From the NCBI GenBank assembly GCA_026003195.1, contig BPGU01000008.1, positions 1-34,567 of the forward strand: a DNA stretch of 34,567 bases, given 5' to 3'. The stretch is from Armatimonadota bacterium (GTDB lineage: Bacteria > Armatimonadota > HRBIN16). This document shows positions 4,996-33,162 of the stretch, in pieces. The notes under the pieces are model-generated. The model was not told where the DNA came from, made no database searches, and saw only the letters and a program-made list of their open reading frames with translations. The first letter of the stretch is position 1. Every line of letters starts with the position of its first letter. The position numbers were made by a program, and so were the translations under genes.

Positions 4996-5025
4996 TTGAC
5001 ATTTTTACAGTTGCTTGTGTATAAT
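4996..5025 (+). promoter_or_regulatory. Late promoter B (TTGACA, 18 bp, TATAAT)
   Basis: TTGACA at 4996-5001 and TATAAT at 5020-5025 with an 18-base spacer; the -10 lies in the GTGTATAAT context shared by the other promoters here. It starts just after the stop at 4991 and points into the capsid and tail genes. Its leader contains GCTGG (5032-5036) and TGAT (5041-5044), also found behind the promoter at 31706. Confidence 0.8.
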
Positions 5026-5049
5026 GTAAGTGCTGGCACGTGATGCGTG

Positions 5050-5072
5050 AGGCACGTATCGCGTGCCTTTTT
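5050..5072 (+). terminator. Terminator-like hairpin behind late promoter B
   Basis: GGCACG (5051-5056) pairs with CGTGCC (5062-5067) across a five-base loop, extended by A5050-T5068, and is followed by TTTTT. It lies only about 20 bases after the expected transcript start, so it would stop the promoter's own transcript unless it is bypassed. A second GGCACG at 5035-5040 could compete for the same 3' arm. Confidence 0.65.
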
Positions 5073-5098
5073 GCTTTTGCGCTGGGGACGGAAGTTCA

Positions 5099-5132
5099 GG
5101 CGAGCAGAATGGTCTGCTCGCCATTTTCGTTT
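5099..5132 (+). terminator. Second terminator-like hairpin
   Basis: GGCGAGCAGA (5099-5108) pairs perfectly with TCTGCTCGCC (5113-5122) over a four-base loop; ATTTTCGTTT follows. A 10-bp stem with a moderately T-rich tail fits an intrinsic terminator. Together with the hairpin at 5050 it separates the promoter from the first gene at 5144. Confidence 0.65.
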
Positions 5133-5143
5133 GGGGCAGAAAG

Positions 5144-5338
5144 ATGGGTGTAGAAAAAGAGTGGATCCACAAGTTGATGGTTGCAATTGCGGTTGGAGTG
5201 CTGTTGTTTTCTCTGGTCTTGCACCACTTTGCACCGGAAGACCAGCTTTATGTGCTAGTGGCGACAACGGCACTCGGTTTCCTCTTTGGTAAAGCAACCA
5301 ATGGGCTTAGTAAGAAGAGCGAGGAGGATGTGGAATGA
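5144..5338 (+). CDS. Small two-span membrane protein, possible holin
   Basis: 64 residues. A charged start (MGVEKEWIHK) precedes a hydrophobic helix at about 11-29 (LMVAIAVGVLLFSLVL), a short polar turn (HHFAPEDQ) and a second helix at about 38-56 (LYVLVATTALGFLFG). An acidic/basic C-terminus closes it (KKSEEDVE). This is the size and topology of class II holins. However, it is the first gene of the capsid operon and far from the endolysin at 33868. It may instead be a head-operon membrane protein. Its stop overlaps the next ATG (ATGA). Only a weak ribosome-binding site is visible. Confidence 0.6.
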   Translation: MGVEKEWIHKLMVAIAVGVLLFSLVLHHFAPEDQLYVLVATTALGFLFGKATNGLSKKSEEDVE

Positions 5339-6315
5339 GCTACTTCTTGTCAACGCTGGCACTATCGGGTTCGCCATCACGTGTCAAAGTGCAGATACTT
5401 CGCTCTGGTGAATGGAAACATCCGTCTGCGCCCGGTGGCGTGTTGAGAGTAGATGATGAGTTACTCTCCGCGCTGGAGGAAAGTTTTCGGTCTGGCGTGC
5501 GGGGGAAGGAGTTGCCAGTCAATCTGAATCACAAGATGACCGACTTCGCGGTTGGCTGGCTGAGAGACGTGAAACGTGAGGGCGACTCCCTGGTAGGCAT
5601 CGTAGACGTCGTGGACAGTGAGACAGCAAAAGCGATACAAGAGCAGAAACTCCGTTACAGTTCTGCAGAGATACTCTTCAACTACACAGACCCAGAAACG
5701 CAGCAGACTTACCCAGCAGTGTTGAAGGGTTTAGCTTTCACGAATTACCCGTTCATCAAGCGTTTAGAACCCGCTCAGGTGGTCAACTTGAGCGAGATAG
5801 AGGAGGTGCATCTCATGGACGAGAGACTACAGCAATTGGAAGAGCAGATGGCGCAGTATGAGCAGCGCTTGCGGGAGATGCAGCAGCTGACAGACGATCT
5901 GCGAGAAGAGAACGCGAAGCTGCGTCAGATGAACGACACGCTACTTTCGGAGACGCGCAAGCAGCAAGATGAATTGCTGCTCAAGGAGTTCGAAGACAGT
6001 GTGCCGCCAGCGGTGCGCAAAGTGGCGTCGGCACTGCTCGCGTTGGCGCGTGGGGAGGAAGTGCTTCTGTCCGAGTTCCAGCAAGACGCGAAGGGCAGTG
6101 CCGGATTGCGGGAACTGGTGCAAATCTTGCTGAACGAGTTCAAAGCGTTTGGCAGACGCGAGCCTGCACCCGACGAGTTGCGTGTTGCACCGCGTCGGCA
6201 AGTGGGCAACGATGTCGACTTGCTGCTGCAGAAAGCGCAAGAGCTGCAAGGAAACGGTATGCCGTTCGCGCAAGCGGTGCGCGAAGCATACCGAAATCTG
6301 AAGGGAGGTGTGTAA
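5335..6315 (+). CDS. Mu I-like head maturation protease fused to scaffold
   Basis: 326 residues; AGGAGG precedes ATG 5335. Residues 1-150 match the phage Mu I protease family: VKVQILRSGEWKHPS, ELPVNLNHKMTDFAVGWLRD, then LRYSSAEILFNYTDPET and a GLAFTNYPFIKRLEP segment. His in LNH and Ser in SSAE are the likely catalytic region residues, by analogy with that family. Residues about 160-215 form a long coiled coil rich in Gln, Glu and Leu, and a basic C-terminal helix follows. In Mu the protease trims the scaffold and capsid proteins. The scaffold is also made alone from an internal start, and the same seems true here (5815). It lies directly before the decoration and capsid genes, as expected. 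Confidence 0.8.
   Translation: MSYFLSTLALSGSPSRVKVQILRSGEWKHPSAPGGVLRVDDELLSALEESFRSGVRGKELPVNLNHKMTDFAVGWLRDVKREGDSLVGIVDVVDSETAKAIQEQKLRYSSAEILFNYTDPETQQTYPAVLKGLAFTNYPFIKRLEPAQVVNLSEIEEVHLMDERLQQLEEQMAQYEQRLREMQQLTDDLREENAKLRQMNDTLLSETRKQQDELLLKEFEDSVPPAVRKVASALLALARGEEVLLSEFQQDAKGSAGLRELVQILLNEFKAFGRREPAPDELRVAPRRQVGNDVDLLLQKAQELQGNGMPFAQAVREAYRNLKGGV
5815..6315 (+). CDS. Internal in-frame scaffold protein (Mu Z/Nu3-like)
   Basis: ATG 5815 (codon 161 of the protease gene) is preceded by AGGAGGTG at 5801-5808 with six bases spacing, one of the best ribosome-binding sites in the window although it lies inside a coding region. The product would be 166 residues. It starts with a coiled coil (MDERLQQLEEQMAQYEQRLR) and ends with a basic helical tail, as assembly scaffolds do. 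An internally started scaffold nested in the protease gene is known for Mu (I/Z) and lambda (C/Nu3). Confidence 0.65.
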   Translation: MDERLQQLEEQMAQYEQRLREMQQLTDDLREENAKLRQMNDTLLSETRKQQDELLLKEFEDSVPPAVRKVASALLALARGEEVLLSEFQQDAKGSAGLRELVQILLNEFKAFGRREPAPDELRVAPRRQVGNDVDLLLQKAQELQGNGMPFAQAVREAYRNLKGGV

Positions 6316-6318
6316 ATC

Positions 6319-6855
6319 ATGGCGTTCGAGCGCACTTCGGGTTTAACCCGCAGCTTTCTGTATTTTGACAGCGGTGGCAACCCACTAGCGCCATACTCCC
6401 CCGTGTCGCTGCTAACCAGTGGTTTGCCCAGTGGTTACAATGTTGGCGAAGTGGTCGGACTGCCATCTGTAGCCAGTGGGCGCAACACGACATATCTGGT
6501 TGGCGTGACGCTGGAGTGGGCTTATTCTGGTCGACAAGTGCCTGTGCAGATTGATGGCATCGTCTTCGTGATTGCCAACGCTGCCGTAAGTGCGAGTGGC
6601 ATCGTCTTCGTTGCAGCAACCGGCACTCGCACGGCGGATCAAGCACCGTTTGTGAACCATCCGGCAATTCGACCGCTCGTGCGTCCTGGTCAGAGCGTGA
6701 CGATGAACGTCGTGCTGTGTGATGACGTTGCCATCACGCCCCAATCTGGTAGTGCCAACTTGCTGTACTATCCGTTGGGCATCGCACTGGCGCCTGCAAC
6801 GGCACAGTATGATTTGTTCCCAGTGCTGTTACAGACGCAGCCGTTCTACGCATAA
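6319..6855 (+). CDS. Head decoration protein (DUF2190-like)
   Basis: 178 residues; GGGAGGTG upstream of ATG 6319. The protein is beta-rich with few charges and many Gly, Val, Ser and Thr. It includes VGEVVGLPSVASG, YLVGVTLEWA and a repeated IVFV segment (DGIVFVIANAAVSASGIVFV). Small capsid-cementing proteins of the DUF2190 or lambda gpD type have this size, composition and position between protease and major capsid protein. It would bind the outside of the expanded capsid. Assignment rests on position plus pattern. Confidence 0.6.
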   Translation: MAFERTSGLTRSFLYFDSGGNPLAPYSPVSLLTSGLPSGYNVGEVVGLPSVASGRNTTYLVGVTLEWAYSGRQVPVQIDGIVFVIANAAVSASGIVFVAATGTRTADQAPFVNHPAIRPLVRPGQSVTMNVVLCDDVAITPQSGSANLLYYPLGIALAPATAQYDLFPVLLQTQPFYA

Positions 6856-6866
6856 ATCACACGGAG

Positions 6867-6881
6867 GTGGCTTGCAGCCAC
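6867..6881 (+). other. Small hairpin before the major capsid gene
   Basis: GTGGCT (6867-6872) pairs with AGCCAC (6876-6881) over TGC. It lies in the only gap between decoration and capsid genes, which also has two GGAGGTG boxes (6863-6869 and one right before 6916). It might stabilise or help regulate the capsid message. Confidence 0.35.
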
Positions 6882-6915
6882 GGATGGCAATTTCGCCACA
6901 TGGAGGTGACTAAGG

Positions 6916-7821
6916 ATGCCAAACTTTGCACCGAGTGTGCACTATGACAAGATTCTGAGTGAAGTCAGCATCCGCTACTCGCAAGATGGGTATATCGCCA
7001 CTCGTGTGTTCCCGGCGTTGCCGGTCGTCAAAGAGAGCGATCTCATTGACGTCTACGACCGCGAGAATGTGCGCATCTTCAACGACTTGCGGGCGGATGG
7101 TGCGACGGCGCATGAAATTGATTGGGGCTGGACACTCAGACCCTACTTCGCGCAAGAGCACGCACTCAGGCATCTTGTGACTGACCGAGCTCTGAAGAAC
7201 GTGGACGAACCTATCGACCTCTTCGTGGACACCACAGAGCATCTGACGGACATGCTAATGCTTGCCGCGGACGCGCTGGCGGCGAGCATTATGCTTGACC
7301 CCAACAACAATGTTGGCGCGACGAACGCGAACTGGACAAACTACAGCACGGCGTCGCCAAAGACGGACATCATGACCGCGAAGAACGCGATATTCACCGC
7401 GAGTGGACGCCAGCCCAACGTGATGATTGTCCCGTCTACCGTCGCGAACCGCATGACGCTCATCCAGGAGATTAAGGAAGAGCGCAAGTATGTCAACGAC
7501 TTGACACAGTCTGGGTTGCCTCGCAACTTGTGGGGGTTGGAAGTGGTCGAAGTTGCGCTCATCCGCAACACAGCCCAGCCGGGTCAATCTCCGAGTTTTC
7601 AAGAGCTCTGGTCTGATAACATCTGGATTGGATATGTAGACCCCAATCCGCGACGCAAGATGCTTACATACGGTCTTGCGCCGACACCGCGACCGCGCAC
7701 GGTTCGTACTTACAGAGATGAGGCGCGAGCGGGAACTTGGGTGGAAGTGAGCTGGATATACGATTTCACCGTCGTCGCAAGAGAGTGCGGTTATATCTTG
7801 CAATCCGTGTTCACCGCGTAG
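6916..7821 (+). CDS. Major capsid protein (HK97-like fold expected)
   Basis: 301 residues; strong GGAGGTGACTAAGG before ATG. The N-terminal segment (YDKILSEVSIRYSQDGYIATRVFP) and the later ARxF-like, IVPSTVANRMTLIQEIKEER and NLWGLEVVEV blocks are typical of the capsid family that follows Mu I-type proteases. In these, a helical spine segment is followed by a strand-rich P domain. A C-terminal strand region (TWVEVSWIYDFTVVARECGY) closes it. It is the expected size for a processed or unprocessed major head protein and sits at the expected position after the decoration protein. The HK97 fold is inferred from the family context, not seen directly. Confidence 0.8.
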   Translation: MPNFAPSVHYDKILSEVSIRYSQDGYIATRVFPALPVVKESDLIDVYDRENVRIFNDLRADGATAHEIDWGWTLRPYFAQEHALRHLVTDRALKNVDEPIDLFVDTTEHLTDMLMLAADALAASIMLDPNNNVGATNANWTNYSTASPKTDIMTAKNAIFTASGRQPNVMIVPSTVANRMTLIQEIKEERKYVNDLTQSGLPRNLWGLEVVEVALIRNTAQPGQSPSFQELWSDNIWIGYVDPNPRRKMLTYGLAPTPRPRTVRTYRDEARAGTWVEVSWIYDFTVVARECGYILQSVFTA

Positions 7822-16048: not shown

Positions 16049-17386
16049 ATGCCTGCTGGGCATGGACAAGACTGGTACAAAATCTACCCATATCACCCAG
16101 GCACTTTAGTCGCGACCGCGGCGCTTCTCAAAGATGATGCACCTATCGGTTCGGCGACGGTTATGGATACAGACAGCCAAAGTGCAAGCACGGGTCTATA
16201 TCTCTGGTCCAATGAGAACTACTCCGGCAGTGGAAGCGTTCACTACAGAGTGCGAATCGCGCTGTACTCGCAGAACGCATTGGCAAACTGGTTGCCACAA
16301 CACCCATTTACCTATCAATACCCAACATACAATCGTTACATGTTTTGTGCTCTCATTATCAAGTCAGGAGCGAACGGTTACGACTTACCAGATTATGACC
16401 CCAACGATGGGACTTCCGCAGGCAGAATGTTCTCGTTGCCGTCTGGATACATTTTCACTGTGAACGGAGCCCGGATGATACGTTGTGATGGGACGAGCAT
16501 CGACTTCAACAATATATCCGGCGGTTACCCGCATCTGTATAAACCCGTCGTTGGTGCTTCCCCCAACGAACAGCACCCTTGCCAGATCGACATTGCCGGA
16601 GACGACCCGGTAAACTATGACATCATGTGGGAACTGGAGTTCGCTTATACGGATCCATCCCCCACTCCATCCCCTAACCAGCCAATCACTTATTACTCCA
16701 CGCAAATCTTTGCCATGAGCATTCTCGAGTATCAATACCCTGGCTACCAACCCGTTTATCAGCTGATAGGCGGTGTGAACATCTACGTCCACTATCCATA
16801 TTCACCTCCACCACCGGCATCGATTCCTATAGGTTCTTTACACAATCTGGACAACCAACAGTTGTTTGTGGGTGGTGGGCGTTCGGTGCGCAGACTGAAT
16901 CTTTTCGCACTGTCCATGTTGGATCATTACGATTATGTGCCATCTGGTTACAGCATCGTGCGTGTGCGGCACCTTCCACGCCACAAGGGCATTTTGCTGT
17001 TGGCAAGGAGTGACACACAGACTGGTGGGAACTACGCATTCAAAACGTATTTTGGCAATGTTGGTGAGACGACCACGACGGAGGTGTTGAGCTTGAGCGC
17101 GGCAGATGCGATAGTGGAAGTTTCTGAACGAAGACGGGAGACGCTACTGGTATACATGTTGTCTACCGGAGAGGTGTACTCCAGGAAGTCTTTGGACGGT
17201 GGTTGGAACTTTGGTTCGGCACAGCGTTGCACACTTGGTGGTTCAAACATGAATGCGAACGCGCTGCTAGATTTGGACTACAGTGTGCGCCGAGATTGCT
17301 ACCTCATGGTGTTCAAAGCTACCGACAACAGCGTCAAGCTGCTGATTTCAGAAGATGGTGTGAACTGGACAGATACGGGGGTGTAG
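16049..17386 (+). CDS. Tail spike/adhesin-like protein with Asp-box motifs
   Basis: 445 residues; GGAG upstream. The N-terminal half is aromatic, Asn/Tyr/Pro-rich and beta-like. In the C-terminal half (from about residue 265: LHNLDNQQLFVGGGRSVRRL) strand-rich repeats include two Asp-box-like motifs, SLDGGWNFGS (about residue 385) and SEDGVNWTDTG (last residues), separated by about 50 residues. Asp boxes mark beta-propeller folds such as sialidases, but catalytic Arg residues cannot be assigned, so no enzyme activity is claimed. It is the last structural gene before the terminases and is probably a receptor-binding or spike component. Confidence 0.55.
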   Translation: MPAGHGQDWYKIYPYHPGTLVATAALLKDDAPIGSATVMDTDSQSASTGLYLWSNENYSGSGSVHYRVRIALYSQNALANWLPQHPFTYQYPTYNRYMFCALIIKSGANGYDLPDYDPNDGTSAGRMFSLPSGYIFTVNGARMIRCDGTSIDFNNISGGYPHLYKPVVGASPNEQHPCQIDIAGDDPVNYDIMWELEFAYTDPSPTPSPNQPITYYSTQIFAMSILEYQYPGYQPVYQLIGGVNIYVHYPYSPPPPASIPIGSLHNLDNQQLFVGGGRSVRRLNLFALSMLDHYDYVPSGYSIVRVRHLPRHKGILLLARSDTQTGGNYAFKTYFGNVGETTTTEVLSLSAADAIVEVSERRRETLLVYMLSTGEVYSRKSLDGGWNFGSAQRCTLGGSNMNANALLDLDYSVRRDCYLMVFKATDNSVKLLISEDGVNWTDTGV

Positions 17387-20035: not shown

Positions 20036-20064
20036 TTGATTTCTCTTGTGTTTTCGTGTATAAT
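20036..20064 (+). promoter_or_regulatory. Early rightward promoter (TTGATT, 17 bp, TATAAT)
   Basis: TTGATT 20036-20041 and TATAAT 20059-20064, spacer 17, with the GTGTATAAT context. It sits about 15 bases right of the operator half-sites and about 50 bases before the Cro-like gene. No terminator lies between it and the early genes. Confidence 0.8.
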
Positions 20065-20111
20065 ACAGATAGACACAAATAAACACACGAGCCTACCTAC
20101 GAGGGATTTTA

Positions 20112-20384
20112 ATGGCAAGACCAATTAGCTATCCGCGCCTTAGAAAGCGCAGGCGCGAGCTGGAGTTGCCACTGGACTACGTGGCACAAATGCTCCGAAT
20201 CTCGCGCACTGTGCTTTCTTTGTACGAGCGAGGCTTCGAGCCAGTTCGCCCAACTGCGCGACAGCGGTGGGCGGAGCTGGCAAAGATGTACGCCCGGCTC
20301 CTGGAACGGTTGGAAGCCGATTCCAAAGCCGGGCGTTTGCATGTACGTGTCTATTCCAGAACCCAGGAAACGCAAAAGGAGTGA
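20112..20384 (+). CDS. Cro-like HTH regulator
   Basis: 90 residues, first gene of the early operon. Basic N-terminus (YPRLRKRRRELELPLDYVAQ) leads into an XRE-type HTH: LDYVAQMLRISRTVLSLYER covers helices 2 and 3. The rest is helical (QRWAELAKMYARLLERLEAD) and could dimerise. It is divergent from the CI-like repressor and is the first product of the promoter at 20036, so a Cro-like role at the shared operator is the simplest inference. GAGG about eight bases before the ATG serves as ribosome-binding site. Confidence 0.7.
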   Translation: MARPISYPRLRKRRRELELPLDYVAQMLRISRTVLSLYERGFEPVRPTARQRWAELAKMYARLLERLEADSKAGRLHVRVYSRTQETQKE

Positions 20385-27829: not shown

Positions 27830-28169
27830 AACGTGCGGCCAGACACGAGAAGTTGCGCTCGAATTGGATGGGCTCCGAGAAGAGTTCGTGGGCTATCGGG
27901 TGCTGGTGGATGGCAAGGGCATTCCGACGTGTCCATACTGTAATCGTCACCTGGCATGCTATTCCGTGTCCGTGTTCCACTACGTGCGTGAGAAGAGCCA
28001 GCGACTGCAGTGTCCTGCGCTGAATCTCGTTTGCCCTGATTGTTTGCGCCACACTTCTACGTTGCCCATCTTTCCATCGTTGGCAGGCAGAGTGAGCTCG
28101 TTGCCATTAGATGCGTGTGACGCGGCGCGTCTTCACGAGCATGGCTTTGTCTCAATCCCTTACCGGTAG
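27816..28169 (+). CDS. Zinc-binding hypothetical protein
   Basis: 117 residues from ATG 27816 (AGGAGG upstream), overlapping the initiator by 14 bases. CPYC (about 39-42) and CPDC (about 73-76) form a probable zinc site separated by a beta-rich stretch (YSVSVFHYVREKSQRLQC). The N-terminus is helical. No family was recognised; its coupling to the initiator gene suggests a role in replication or recombination. Confidence 0.55.
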   Translation: MTDSKTCGQTREVALELDGLREEFVGYRVLVDGKGIPTCPYCNRHLACYSVSVFHYVREKSQRLQCPALNLVCPDCLRHTSTLPIFPSLAGRVSSLPLDACDAARLHEHGFVSIPYR

Positions 28170-28194
28170 GCTCTTAAAAGGAGGGGCATATGCA

Positions 28195-30322: not shown

Positions 30323-30351
30323 TTGACTTTACACAAGAGAGTGTGTATAAT
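30323..30351 (+). promoter_or_regulatory. Rightward promoter (TTGACT, 17 bp, TATAAT)
   Basis: TTGACT 30323-30328, TATAAT 30346-30351, spacer 17, GTGTATAAT context. A- and T-tracts at 30284-30303 upstream could act as an UP element. Drives the operon 30431-31700. Confidence 0.85.
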
Positions 30352-30373
30352 AGAAGTGAAAGTAGTAAAGAAA

Positions 30374-30424
30374 CCCCCAGCCGGGCGGGGGTGATACAAA
30401 TAGCCCGGCATCCGAAGAGGGGGG
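30374..30424 (+). promoter_or_regulatory. Leader with mutually exclusive hairpins
   Basis: CCCCC (30374-30378) can pair with GGGGG (30387-30391) around AGCCGGGC; alternatively GCCGGGC (30380-30386) pairs with GCCCGGC (30403-30409). The two share bases. The C-run can also pair with the G-run ribosome-binding site (about 30418-30424) before ATG 30431. This fits a translational switch. Confidence 0.5.
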
Positions 30425-30430
30425 ATAGAG

Positions 30431-30874
30431 ATGAGACGAAGAAAGGGCACTAACGATGACCGCCCAAGGCAGTTCACGAAAGAACTGCCTGAGTCTGATT
30501 ACTACCTCTCCGTGACCGATAAGCACTCCGGAAGGTATCCCTGCACCGGCGGGGACTACGGATACGGGCGCGACCTGTATCCTGTGACCGATGTGCAGGG
30601 ACAAATTACCGGCGCCGTGGTCCGCTACTGGACCACGGCGTGGTTAGATTTCTGTGGTCACCGTGGGGAGTTTCAGCAGTGCTCCCCATGGTGTCAGTAT
30701 GAGATAGTGCCCATCGAGAACCTCGACGAAGAGGTCCGGGAGGCACTGCTCCGTGGCGATGAACGTTACGACGCAACCGGGCACTCGTACTCAGAGTGCC
30801 TGGTCGACGGGGGATGCATCTACTGCTACCCCTGTTACCATGAGGAGTGCTACGATTACTACGACCGGGAGTGA
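30431..30874 (+). CDS. Cys-rich hypothetical protein, first gene of the regulatory operon
   Basis: 147 residues, G-rich ribosome-binding site. Strongly hydrophilic, with many Asp, Glu, Tyr and Cys. A segment FCGHRGEFQQCSPWC (about 88-102) and a C-terminal SECLVDGGCIYCYPCYHEEC cluster suggest one or two zinc sites. N-terminus is basic (MRRRKGTNDDRPRQFTKEL). I recognise no family. It shares the operon with the next two genes; its stop overlaps a GTG start (GTGA). A regulatory or host-interaction protein is a guess. Confidence 0.6.
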   Translation: MRRRKGTNDDRPRQFTKELPESDYYLSVTDKHSGRYPCTGGDYGYGRDLYPVTDVQGQITGAVVRYWTTAWLDFCGHRGEFQQCSPWCQYEIVPIENLDEEVREALLRGDERYDATGHSYSECLVDGGCIYCYPCYHEECYDYYDRE

Positions 30875-31071
30875 CCGCACCACTTCCCATGTTGTCCCTG
30901 CTGGGCACGTCGTATCTCAACCAGGCTCTTTCTGGCAAGCTTTGTGTGGGGCATCTGTTGCCCTACTGTCGCGAACTGGTGGAGGGTGGCTTCGTCCAGC
31001 GACTGGACGGCGTGACGCTGCGGACAGTAGAGAAGAAAGCAGGCAGCGCAGAGCTGGTGGTGGTTAAGTGA
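30871..31071 (+). CDS. Small hypothetical protein between regulatory genes
   Basis: 66 residues from GTG 30871, which overlaps the preceding stop; ATG 30889 is an alternative (60 residues). The sequence LGTSYLNQALSGKLCVGHLL followed by a basic strand pattern (RLDGVTLRTVEKKAG) fits a small alpha/beta or wHTH-like fold, but this is weak. Its stop overlaps the next ATG (TGATG). Translational coupling with both neighbours suggests the three genes work together. Confidence 0.5.
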   Translation: MTAPLPMLSLLGTSYLNQALSGKLCVGHLLPYCRELVEGGFVQRLDGVTLRTVEKKAGSAELVVVK

Positions 31072-31700
31072 TGACGCTTTCTGCACTCGCAGCGTCTTGT
31101 GGTATTGGTGTCCCTGGCGACCAGAACGGGCACTGCACTGTCTGTGGGGCGTTTGTTGCAGACGGACACCCGCCCGTTTTTGGTGACAAATTCACCAGTT
31201 GGCAGCACTTGCAAACATTTTCGGATGCTGTGCTCTGCCCGCCATGTCACGAGATGCTGAACAACCCGCAGTGGCGTCGTTCGCACTGGATGCTCTCTCC
31301 CCCCGAAGGGGTGCGGTGGTTGCAGCGCAGTGAAATCAGGCAACTGGTTCGTATACCGCCATCTCCCCCTTATGCGCTATATACCACCGCATCCTTCAAA
31401 AAGCATGGCTGGATTGTATTGCAGCAACATGTGAACTTTGACACCAGCGTTCTGCGCTTCGCGTGGGACGAACAGGTCTTCGCCGTGCAGCGATCTGAAC
31501 TGTTAGAAATGCTGGATTTTGTGGAAGCATTGCTTGCGCGTGGGTGGGGGCGCAAGGAACTGGCTTCCGAGTGGAAACTGCAGCACGTTTCGCAAGAACC
31601 TGAACGATACAGACGCTGGAAGTCGTTCAGACTACATCCCGTGTGGTTGTGGGTGGTCTGGTGTGCGAGATGCGAAGCAAACGAGTTGACTCTTTTCTGA
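31071..31700 (+). CDS. Csf1-like zinc-finger protein (type IV CRISPR large-subunit family), orphan
   Basis: 209 residues (GTG 31068 or ATG 31071). N-terminal zinc site: CTVCG (Cys22, 25) and CPPC (Cys56, 59), with FTSWQHLQTFSDAVL between them. Then EGVRWLQRSEIRQLV, PPSPPYALYTTASFKKHGW (about 96-114), 'NFDTSVLRFAWDEQVF', and a helical end. The order 'CxxCG, FT.W....SD.VC..C, eG.rwl...eir.l....P.PPy, QKH-like, N.......F' is the pattern I know from Csf1 of type IV CRISPR systems. No other cas gene or CRISPR array is present. It lies directly before the late promoter, where lambdoid late regulators sit. Family call by pattern only. Confidence 0.55.
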   Translation: MTLSALAASCGIGVPGDQNGHCTVCGAFVADGHPPVFGDKFTSWQHLQTFSDAVLCPPCHEMLNNPQWRRSHWMLSPPEGVRWLQRSEIRQLVRIPPSPPYALYTTASFKKHGWIVLQQHVNFDTSVLRFAWDEQVFAVQRSELLEMLDFVEALLARGWGRKELASEWKLQHVSQEPERYRRWKSFRLHPVWLWVVWCARCEANELTLF

Positions 31701-31705
31701 TGGCA

Positions 31706-31734
31706 TTGATATGTCGTCTGGAGGGGTGTATAAT
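31706..31734 (+). promoter_or_regulatory. Late promoter A (TTGATA, 17 bp, TATAAT)
   Basis: TTGATA 31706-31711 and TATAAT 31729-31734, spacer 17. The -35 begins five bases after the Csf1-like gene's stop. The leader contains GCTGG (31745-31749) and TGAT (31753-31756) ahead of a terminator hairpin, like the leader of the promoter at 4996. Confidence 0.85.
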
Positions 31735-31761
31735 ATTATTAGACGCTGGGTCTGATAGACA

Positions 31762-31795
31762 GGCGCGTGACAACACGTTGTCACGCGCCGTTTTT
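31762..31795 (+). terminator. Strong terminator between late promoter A and the portal gene
   Basis: GGCGCGTGACAAC (31762-31774) and GTTGTCACGCGCC (31777-31789) form a 13-bp perfect inverted repeat (effective stem 11 bp with loop six), followed by G and TTTTT. It begins about 20 bases after the expected transcript start and 15 bases before the portal gene. Confidence 0.85.
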
Positions 31796-31809
31796 GTTAG
31801 GTGATGAAG

Positions 31810-33162
31810 ATGCGCACGCGACCGCAGATGGGACAATTAGGGCGAACGGGCACGATGCGTTTGATGCCGTTCTTGGCGCAGCGTGAAGGCGGGCGCATCA
31901 TTGCGTATCGCACGGACACCATTACGATTGACGAACTCGACCGTGTGCGTCAGGACCCGGTTATACGCTCTTCTTTGTTCCTCATGAAGTTGCCCATCTT
32001 GCGAAGCGATTGGAACGTGCTCTGCGATGACGAGGAGATAGCTACGTTCTGCCAGCGTGTGCTTCAACCACACATACGCAGCATTCTTTGGAACCTATTG
32101 ACCGCGTTGGATTTCGGCTTTTCCATCCAAGAGATTGTGTGGACAAGCGATGACGTGACAGCGACGGTGGGACTAGCAAACGCCCCAGATATGCGCAATC
32201 TGGTTTTCAGGGACGCTTGGGTGATTCAGAGGCTCGCACCGTTAGACCCGCAATTTGTCTATCCGTTGGTAGATGCGTTTGGCAATTTTGCCGGTGCAAA
32301 GCAGCTGCTGGATGGCACGGTGATAGAAGCCGAGAAGCTTATCCACTGGGCAGCGAATGCAGAGTTCAATGAAGTGTATGGCAACCCAGCCATCAAAGCG
32401 GCCATTCCCTTTTGGGAGTTGAAACAACGTGCGCTGGAAGACGCTGCGCTTTTCCATAACATTTACGCCGTGCCTACGAAGAAAGGGTTCGCACCGCCGG
32501 GGCAGATAGAAGTAGGGATTGATGGCGATGGGAACCCCATCATGGAAGACAACATGCAGTATCTACAGGCGTTGCTGGAAGAGTTGCAATCTGCGCACAA
32601 CATCGTATTGCCAAGCACTTCGTTGGATGGCGGTCGTGTTTGGGATGTGGAAGCGTTTGACGTCCCGCCCCCCATTGATTACACAGAGTGGATTTCGTTT
32701 TTGGATCAGCAGATGCGTTTGAGTATGGGTGTGCCACAGTTGGCGGTCACCACCAGCGAGACGGGGACATACAATTTGGGGGTGGCGCAAGTAGACTTAT
32801 TCATCGACAACGAGATGGCTTATGTGGCGCAGATAGAAGAAGTGTTGACAAACCAACTGTTGAGCAAATTGGTTGCTTATAACTTTGGCTCAATGGCGCC
32901 ACCGGCGAAGTTGGTGATGCGACTGGACAATTTGTTTGTGAAGCAACTGGTTCAAGGGATGTTGCAACAGATGGCGCAAGGACTCCCAGTGCGAACCGCG
33001 TCGGGTGCTCTGCTTGTGCCAGACTGGGCAAAGATCGCGGAAGATGTCGGAGTGCCCGTTATGGTGATGGAAGAGCTTCCTTACGAGGAGGAAACACAAA
33101 ATGTGGAAGTCGCTGCTGAACACACTGAAGAGAGCACTAACTTTGCCGGCGAGATACAATAG
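31810..33162 (+). CDS. Portal protein (Mu gp29/DUF935-like)
   Basis: 450 residues from ATG 31810 (AGGTGA five bases upstream; GTG 31801 and ATG 31804 also in frame). Features of the DUF935 portal family: LDRVRQDPVIRSSLFLMKLP near 40-60, ALDFGFSIQEIVW near 97-109, the LIHWAANAEFNEVYGNPAIK block (about 178-197, typically 'f..h..... yG.s.lr'), and FLDQQMRLSMGVPQLAVTTS near 297-316. A dodecameric portal forms the DNA entry vertex and binds terminase. It heads late region A, whereas terminase genes end late region B. Confidence 0.85.
   Translation: MRTRPQMGQLGRTGTMRLMPFLAQREGGRIIAYRTDTITIDELDRVRQDPVIRSSLFLMKLPILRSDWNVLCDDEEIATFCQRVLQPHIRSILWNLLTALDFGFSIQEIVWTSDDVTATVGLANAPDMRNLVFRDAWVIQRLAPLDPQFVYPLVDAFGNFAGAKQLLDGTVIEAEKLIHWAANAEFNEVYGNPAIKAAIPFWELKQRALEDAALFHNIYAVPTKKGFAPPGQIEVGIDGDGNPIMEDNMQYLQALLEELQSAHNIVLPSTSLDGGRVWDVEAFDVPPPIDYTEWISFLDQQMRLSMGVPQLAVTTSETGTYNLGVAQVDLFIDNEMAYVAQIEEVLTNQLLSKLVAYNFGSMAPPAKLVMRLDNLFVKQLVQGMLQQMAQGLPVRTASGALLVPDWAKIAEDVGVPVMVMEELPYEEETQNVEVAAEHTEESTNFAGEIQ

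Follow-up and report, generated by a model that had tools for sequence, protein, structure and literature searches.

The phage and its accessory cassette

The window considered here, i.e. the whole stretch of DNA that was analysed (34,567 bases), is the entire contig C8 of the 4.58 Mb bacterial genome G000 and is, judging from its gene content, a temperate tailed phage. The genes encode head protease, scaffold and major capsid proteins (5335-7818) as well as tail proteins, a large terminase (17760), a serine integrase (25237), an endolysin (33868), a ParB/DNA methyltransferase fusion and a replication protein. The first late gene (31801..33162, forward strand) codes for the portal protein, with matches to Pfam Portal_Mu (E = 1e-29) and to the PHROG portal family (E = 1.7e-34). 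A second prophage-like region of the host genome (L020, G000:C6:1-16000) harbors a portal gene whose product is 29% identical to the phage portal; no csf genes were noticed in this region.

Between the early genes and the promoter of the late genes (late promoter A) lies an accessory cassette with its own promoter. The cassette consists of three genes on the forward strand: an open reading frame of 147 codons, a fragment of csf2 and, as the last gene, csf1. Its promoter (TTGACT-17-TATAAT, 30323..30351, forward strand) agrees with the consensus at 11 of 12 positions, and a promoter of matching sequence class is found at the matching position of the sister phage G291 described below. The cassette leader contains a hairpin with the stem ACCCCC/GGGGGT (30373..30409, forward strand, read from the sequence), whose loop GCCGGGC is complementary to a downstream GCCCGGC; an H-type pseudoknot is possible. 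In G291, loop and partner covary to GCGGGGC/GCCCCGC, a comparison of two sequences only, and the leader has no match in Rfam. The first cassette gene (30431..30874, forward strand) encodes an acidic protein of 147 aa with a Cys-rich tail, for which neither a Pfam or NCBIfam match, nor a significant PHROG match, nor a viral relative was found. The csf2 fragment overlaps this gene by GTGA and the subsequent csf1 by TGATG; by inspection of the bases, these overlaps are probably a form of translational coupling.

The first-pass annotation had placed the end of csf1 five bases before a late promoter. This is indeed the case, with the stop located five bases upstream of the -35 box of late promoter A (TTGATA-17-TATAAT, 31706..31734, forward strand). 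Just upstream of the portal gene, a conserved leader, GCTGGGTC..ATAGACAGGCG, is combined with an intrinsic terminator (31740..31795, forward strand) that has a stem of 12 pairs and a T-run (31762-31789). A second pair of promoter and terminator (4996-5122) is found upstream of the head protease. Both late promoters have a strong terminator within about 30 nt, and both share the motif GCTGGG..C..CAGGCG before the hairpin. The pairs at 4996-5122 and 31706-31795 are therefore candidates for leader or antitermination control of the late genes by some factor. Searches against Rfam gave nothing that passed the gathering threshold; a hit to STnc390 at 31748-31801 (E = 0.0095, below threshold) covers the terminator hairpin and was taken as chance.

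A type IV-B-like Csf1 and a fragment of Csf2

The gene csf1 (31071..31700, forward strand) is intact, has 209 codons from its ATG, and encodes with its coding part (31071-31697) a true type IV-B-like Csf1, the large subunit. The product matches the PADLOC profile typeIV_Cas8 (Csf1_0_IV) with E = 9.8e-32; NCBIfam TIGR03114 is matched with E = 2.4e-14, but with 53.5 bits against a curated cut-off of 140, and no Pfam match was obtained. Two Cys pairs (Cys22/25/56/59) that build a zinc site are invariant in all aligned Csf1 relatives, of type IV-B as well as type IV-A. The nearest relative is the Csf1 of Thermococcus nautili plasmid THER333_p (L005; 35% identity, E = 9e-29), and the other near relatives are proteins from viral and bacterial contigs. 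These nearest relatives are accompanied by the complete set csf1-cas11-csf2-csf3-cysH, except in L008, where the contig is short and breaks off behind csf1-cas11. In a small tree, a branch with support 100/100 places the window Csf1 together with five type IV-B rows apart from three type IV-A rows, while its placement within type IV-B is left unsettled.

The predicted fold points to the same family. An AlphaFold model of moderate confidence (pLDDT 70), built on an alignment of five rows, has as its best two PDB matches in Foldseek the type IV-A Csf1 chains 7xg1 and 8rc3 (probability 1.00 and 0.99, respectively), and the next, unrelated match has an E-value of about 1. The model aligns to these chains with Z of 4.6-4.7 over 162-176 residues, with a large rmsd (5 Å). 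The Foldseek check that the first-pass annotation had proposed for the 209-residue protein thus puts Csf1 chains on top, with no confident match to an unrelated zinc-finger family, and its recognition of a Csf1-family protein with Cys pairs holds. Zinc-finger, HNH and arsenate-reductase identities of the product were considered and rejected, as the respective matches are weak and unrelated. A second Csf1 was found neither in the host genome nor among 290 further genomes from the phylum, and the GenBank phage collection yielded no Csf1 relative. A degenerate csf1 considered in genome G153 is invisible to the Csf1 profile and was taken as chance; a weak Csf1 match in the host genome is a CRISPR spacer.

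Directly upstream of csf1, where the first-pass annotation had seen no csf2, the central part of a Cas7-like Csf2 is encoded by 66 codons starting from GTG (30871..31071, forward strand). A Csf2 HMM built from four type IV-B loci matches this fragment with E = 9.3e-9 at Csf2 positions 109-154 and nothing else credibly among the 834 frames of the window. With two Csf2 proteins (L004 and L005) as queries, tblastn yields E = 4e-6, and the fragment is the single match of a full Csf2 query against the entire 4.58 Mb genome. In the alignment, '...LPMLSLLGTSYLNQALSGKLCVGHLLPYCREL...' of the fragment corresponds to '...LPPISVFGSSFLNQAFTGKLKVMNAFPICKEL...' of Csf2; the tail past positions 109-154 aligns weakly. 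An origin of the fragment from the Cas7 or Csm3 of the host was considered and discarded for lack of similarity. Profiles of cas11, csf3 and cysH have no credible match in any frame of the window, such that the earlier statement on the absence of csf3 is borne out, as is the reading of a phage-borne Csf1 outside any complete type IV system. The window hence holds no complete type IV-B effector locus: csf2 is reduced to about 66 codons, and cas11, csf3 and cysH are absent.

Type IV-B systems are comprised of Cas subunits without an array and without a nuclease. The loci closest to the one described here, for example those of T. nautili THER333_p, of the phage-like contig L018, of Caldicoprobacter algeriensis (L017) and of the IMG/VR sequence L004, encode homologous Csf1 proteins that group with the window Csf1 in the tree. 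They have the order csf1-cas11-csf2-csf3-cysH, whereas the phage has no cas11, csf3 or cysH, and a csf2 of 66 codons that precedes csf1. The type IV-A proteins 7xg1 and 8rc3 are the first and second fold matches of the predicted model, yet their identity is only about 10-13%, and neither dinG nor csf5 nor an array context is seen next to the phage csf1. Prophages and archaeal viruses that carry type IV-B loci have been described (PMC10848311), and it has been proposed that type IV-B systems shield mobile elements against the RNA-guided defence of their hosts (PMC8175902, PMC7937560). Viral Cas homologues with anti-CRISPR activity are also known; a literature search of partial coverage returned no report of a phage in which Csf1 and a piece of Cas7 are all that is left. 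A phage reduced to these two parts makes the proposal of mobile-element protection testable with two small genes in place of an entire complex.

The sister phage and the CRISPR arrays of the host genus

The only close relative found is the IMG/VR phage G291, whose portal and capsid proteins are 75% and 74% identical, respectively. It was identified by the capsid protein, after searches with the portal and the 147-aa protein had at first given nothing; searches with two leader patterns and the portal alignment led to G291 again and to no further close phage. G291 keeps the cassette promoter and its leader, the late promoter and terminator at both places, and GCTGGGTC..ATAGACAGGCG before the portal gene; at the place that matches late promoter A it has a TATAAT promoter. 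It has neither csf1 nor csf2, and other small open reading frames are found in their place. The slot before the late promoter is thus a cargo site: the cassette content is exchangeable, whereas the promoters and the terminator next to it are retained. A related arrangement is found at 1435-9493 of L018, a phage-like contig of Thermoanaerobacter A7A. Here, a complete and thus phage-borne type IV-B locus lies upstream of another PAPS-reductase-like gene, of a ParB-like gene and of terminase-like genes, so that this part of phage maps took up such cargo more than once.

The host genome contains three CRISPR arrays of one repeat type (C1 693247-696160, C3 444932-447468 and C4 383431-385070), from which 104 spacers were recovered. 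The array on C1 adjoins the type I-B genes cas6, cas7/Cst2, cas5, cas3 and cas1 as well as the type III-A genes csm1 and csm3. Across seven genomes of the genus, 27 of 323 spacers match the phage at 72% or more, compared to a maximum match of 69% for 1,615 shuffled spacers. Most of the strong spacer matches are immediately preceded by CCA or CCG, which is a plausible PAM. At 1093-1131 and 16250-16288, the phage is matched without any mismatch (39/39) by two spacers of the host, in both cases with CCA upstream; the assembly hence contains phage and host together although the spacers fit. As both contigs may originate from different cells, this need not mean self-targeting.

The arrays of the genus heavily target the phage family, and also csf1 itself: three spacers from two species match the gene, one from the host (31596-31631, 32/36) and two from G005 (31534-31571, 34/38; 31276-31313, 32/38). 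Read in frame, the spacers differ from csf1 in 7 synonymous and 5 non-synonymous codons, with neither a stop nor a gap. When the same changes are placed randomly, a mean of 2.8 synonymous codons results, and at least 7 are reached in 1.1% of the trials (P of about 0.011, with the test resting on 14 nucleotide differences). It follows that csf1 occurs in other phages met by the host genus, and the excess of synonymous differences indicates that the gene appears to be constrained.

Possible functions of the cassette

The gene position had led the first-pass annotation to a Csf1-derived protein turned into a phage late regulator. In such a role, Csf1 would act like Q of phage lambda and let the polymerase read from 31706-31734 through the terminator at 31762-31789. 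The gene does lie directly upstream of a promoter-terminator pair, as late antiterminators do, and with the second pair at 4996-5122, antitermination or leader control may well be used by the phage. However, G291 keeps both pairs without csf1, so that the late promoter does not depend on Csf1 as a constant companion; the linkage to the portal promoter that was to be looked for in related phages is missing in this, the only relative available. Sequence and fold furthermore point to Csf1, with no match of either kind to lambda Q or other late antiterminators among the matches listed, which falls short of exclusion. Since a complete type IV-B operon is found just upstream of packaging genes in L018, position alone says little, and in a cargo site it is no sign of regulation. 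We consider a regulatory function of Csf1 very improbable. Given that the cassette is accessory, with one intact protein and one small fragment of a type IV-B complex, and that the CRISPR memory of the host is rich in sequence of this phage family, the cassette is more probably cargo for counter-defence, or what remains of such cargo, than a gene switch.

We favor, tentatively and somewhat short of calling it probable, that csf1 is a cas gene which the virus employs as a decoy, in the manner of an anti-CRISPR. The phage would keep csf1, and perhaps also the Cas7-like piece, against the CRISPR systems of its host. The type I-B or III-A complex of the host would become defective because its crRNA or its Cas subunits are bound. 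As in known viral Cas homologues with anti-CRISPR activity, a Cas homologue is borne by a phage that the host CRISPR systems target. The pressure exerted by these systems (the 27 genus spacers, and type I-B and III-A genes beside an array) argues for this function, as do two likely mimics of the host CRISPR repeat that the phage carries in addition. Among active functions it would be the most economical, given AcrIB3 and AcrIB4 and the shielding proposals for type IV-B. AcrIB3, a homologue of Cas5, and AcrIB4, a homologue of the C-terminal part of Cas8b, impair type I-B immunity according to the review PMC13131331; the likeness of AcrIB3, AcrIB4 and AcrVIA2 (Katz et al. 2024, as covered by this review) to our case lies in a phage-borne partial set of Cas subunits and a type I-B host. 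AcrIB3 and AcrIB4 are described there as about 38% identical to their type I-B counterparts, whereas the Csf1 described here is related to type IV-B and its function is predicted. Against a decoy, close homology to the inhibited host subunit is not observed: neither Csf1 nor the Csf2 fragment has credible BLAST similarity to Cas8, Cas7, Cas5, Csm1 or Csm3 of the host. Also, G291 manages without the cassette. A decoy against host type IV systems, as the first-pass annotation had it, is weakened by the absence of Csf1 from the other sampled genomes of the genus and phylum; since the host systems are of type I-B and III-A, the idea fares better with these as the target of the decoy. The RNA-sponge model of full type IV-B complexes is unlikely to apply, as the complete filament protein Csf2 and Cas11 are missing. 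No sponge filament is therefore expected, and interference with the assembly of host crRNPs is favored.

Decay is the main and a serious rival to the decoy function, and we regard it as a real possibility, if not a likely one. In this case a whole type IV-B locus, which once served another purpose, is being lost, with csf1 the last gene to decay. Four of the five type IV-B genes are absent or truncated, the sister phage has no csf genes, and the order csf2-csf1, unlike that of any type IV-B relative seen, points to rearrangement. The Csf2 piece in particular may be plain decay. For csf1 itself a relic is harder to maintain, as the gene is stop-free, keeps the columns that are invariant among its relatives, is part of an operon whose genes overlap tightly and whose promoter is close to the consensus, and differs from its counterparts in related phages with a bias to synonymous sites. 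An action in trans, by which Csf1 completes or redirects a CRISPR complex of the host or of another element against competing phages, is in our view improbable. Csf1 would, for example, take the place of the large subunit on host crRNPs, with immunity not disabled. Such a function agrees with proposals that type IV-B systems scavenge crRNAs or act between mobile elements (PMC8175902, PMC10848311) and with the large arrays of the host genus, but the host genome contains neither a further csf1 nor a further csf2, and a purified type IV-B complex had no crRNA enrichment (PMC7937560).

The decoy function may extend to RNA. The first-pass annotation had reported no repeat array, and none is seen in the window; it contains only two solitary sequences that resemble the host repeat, at 28149-28178 (reverse strand, 25/30 identical) and at 20084-20113 (forward strand, 22/30 identical). 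The best matches of 3,000 shuffled repeats in the window never exceed 23 identical positions and reach at least 22 in 5 cases. Both sequences are candidates for RNA anti-CRISPRs (Racr, PMC10651486); none was found in G291. A combined action, in which Csf1 and a Cas7-like miniprotein of 66 residues, possibly with these repeat-mimic RNAs, sabotage the assembly of type I-B or III-A crRNPs, is doubtful. If true, the phage would have cut a type IV-B complex down to this pair, type IV would be the source of a protein-based anti-CRISPR, and the case would give a direct clue to the role of array-less type IV-B systems for mobile elements. The 147-aa protein is a candidate for a further counter-defence gene. 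The repeat-like sequence at 20084-20113 follows the promoter at 20036-20064 by about 20 nt and is part of the leader of a Cro-like gene, which lies opposite a gene for a repressor-like protein.
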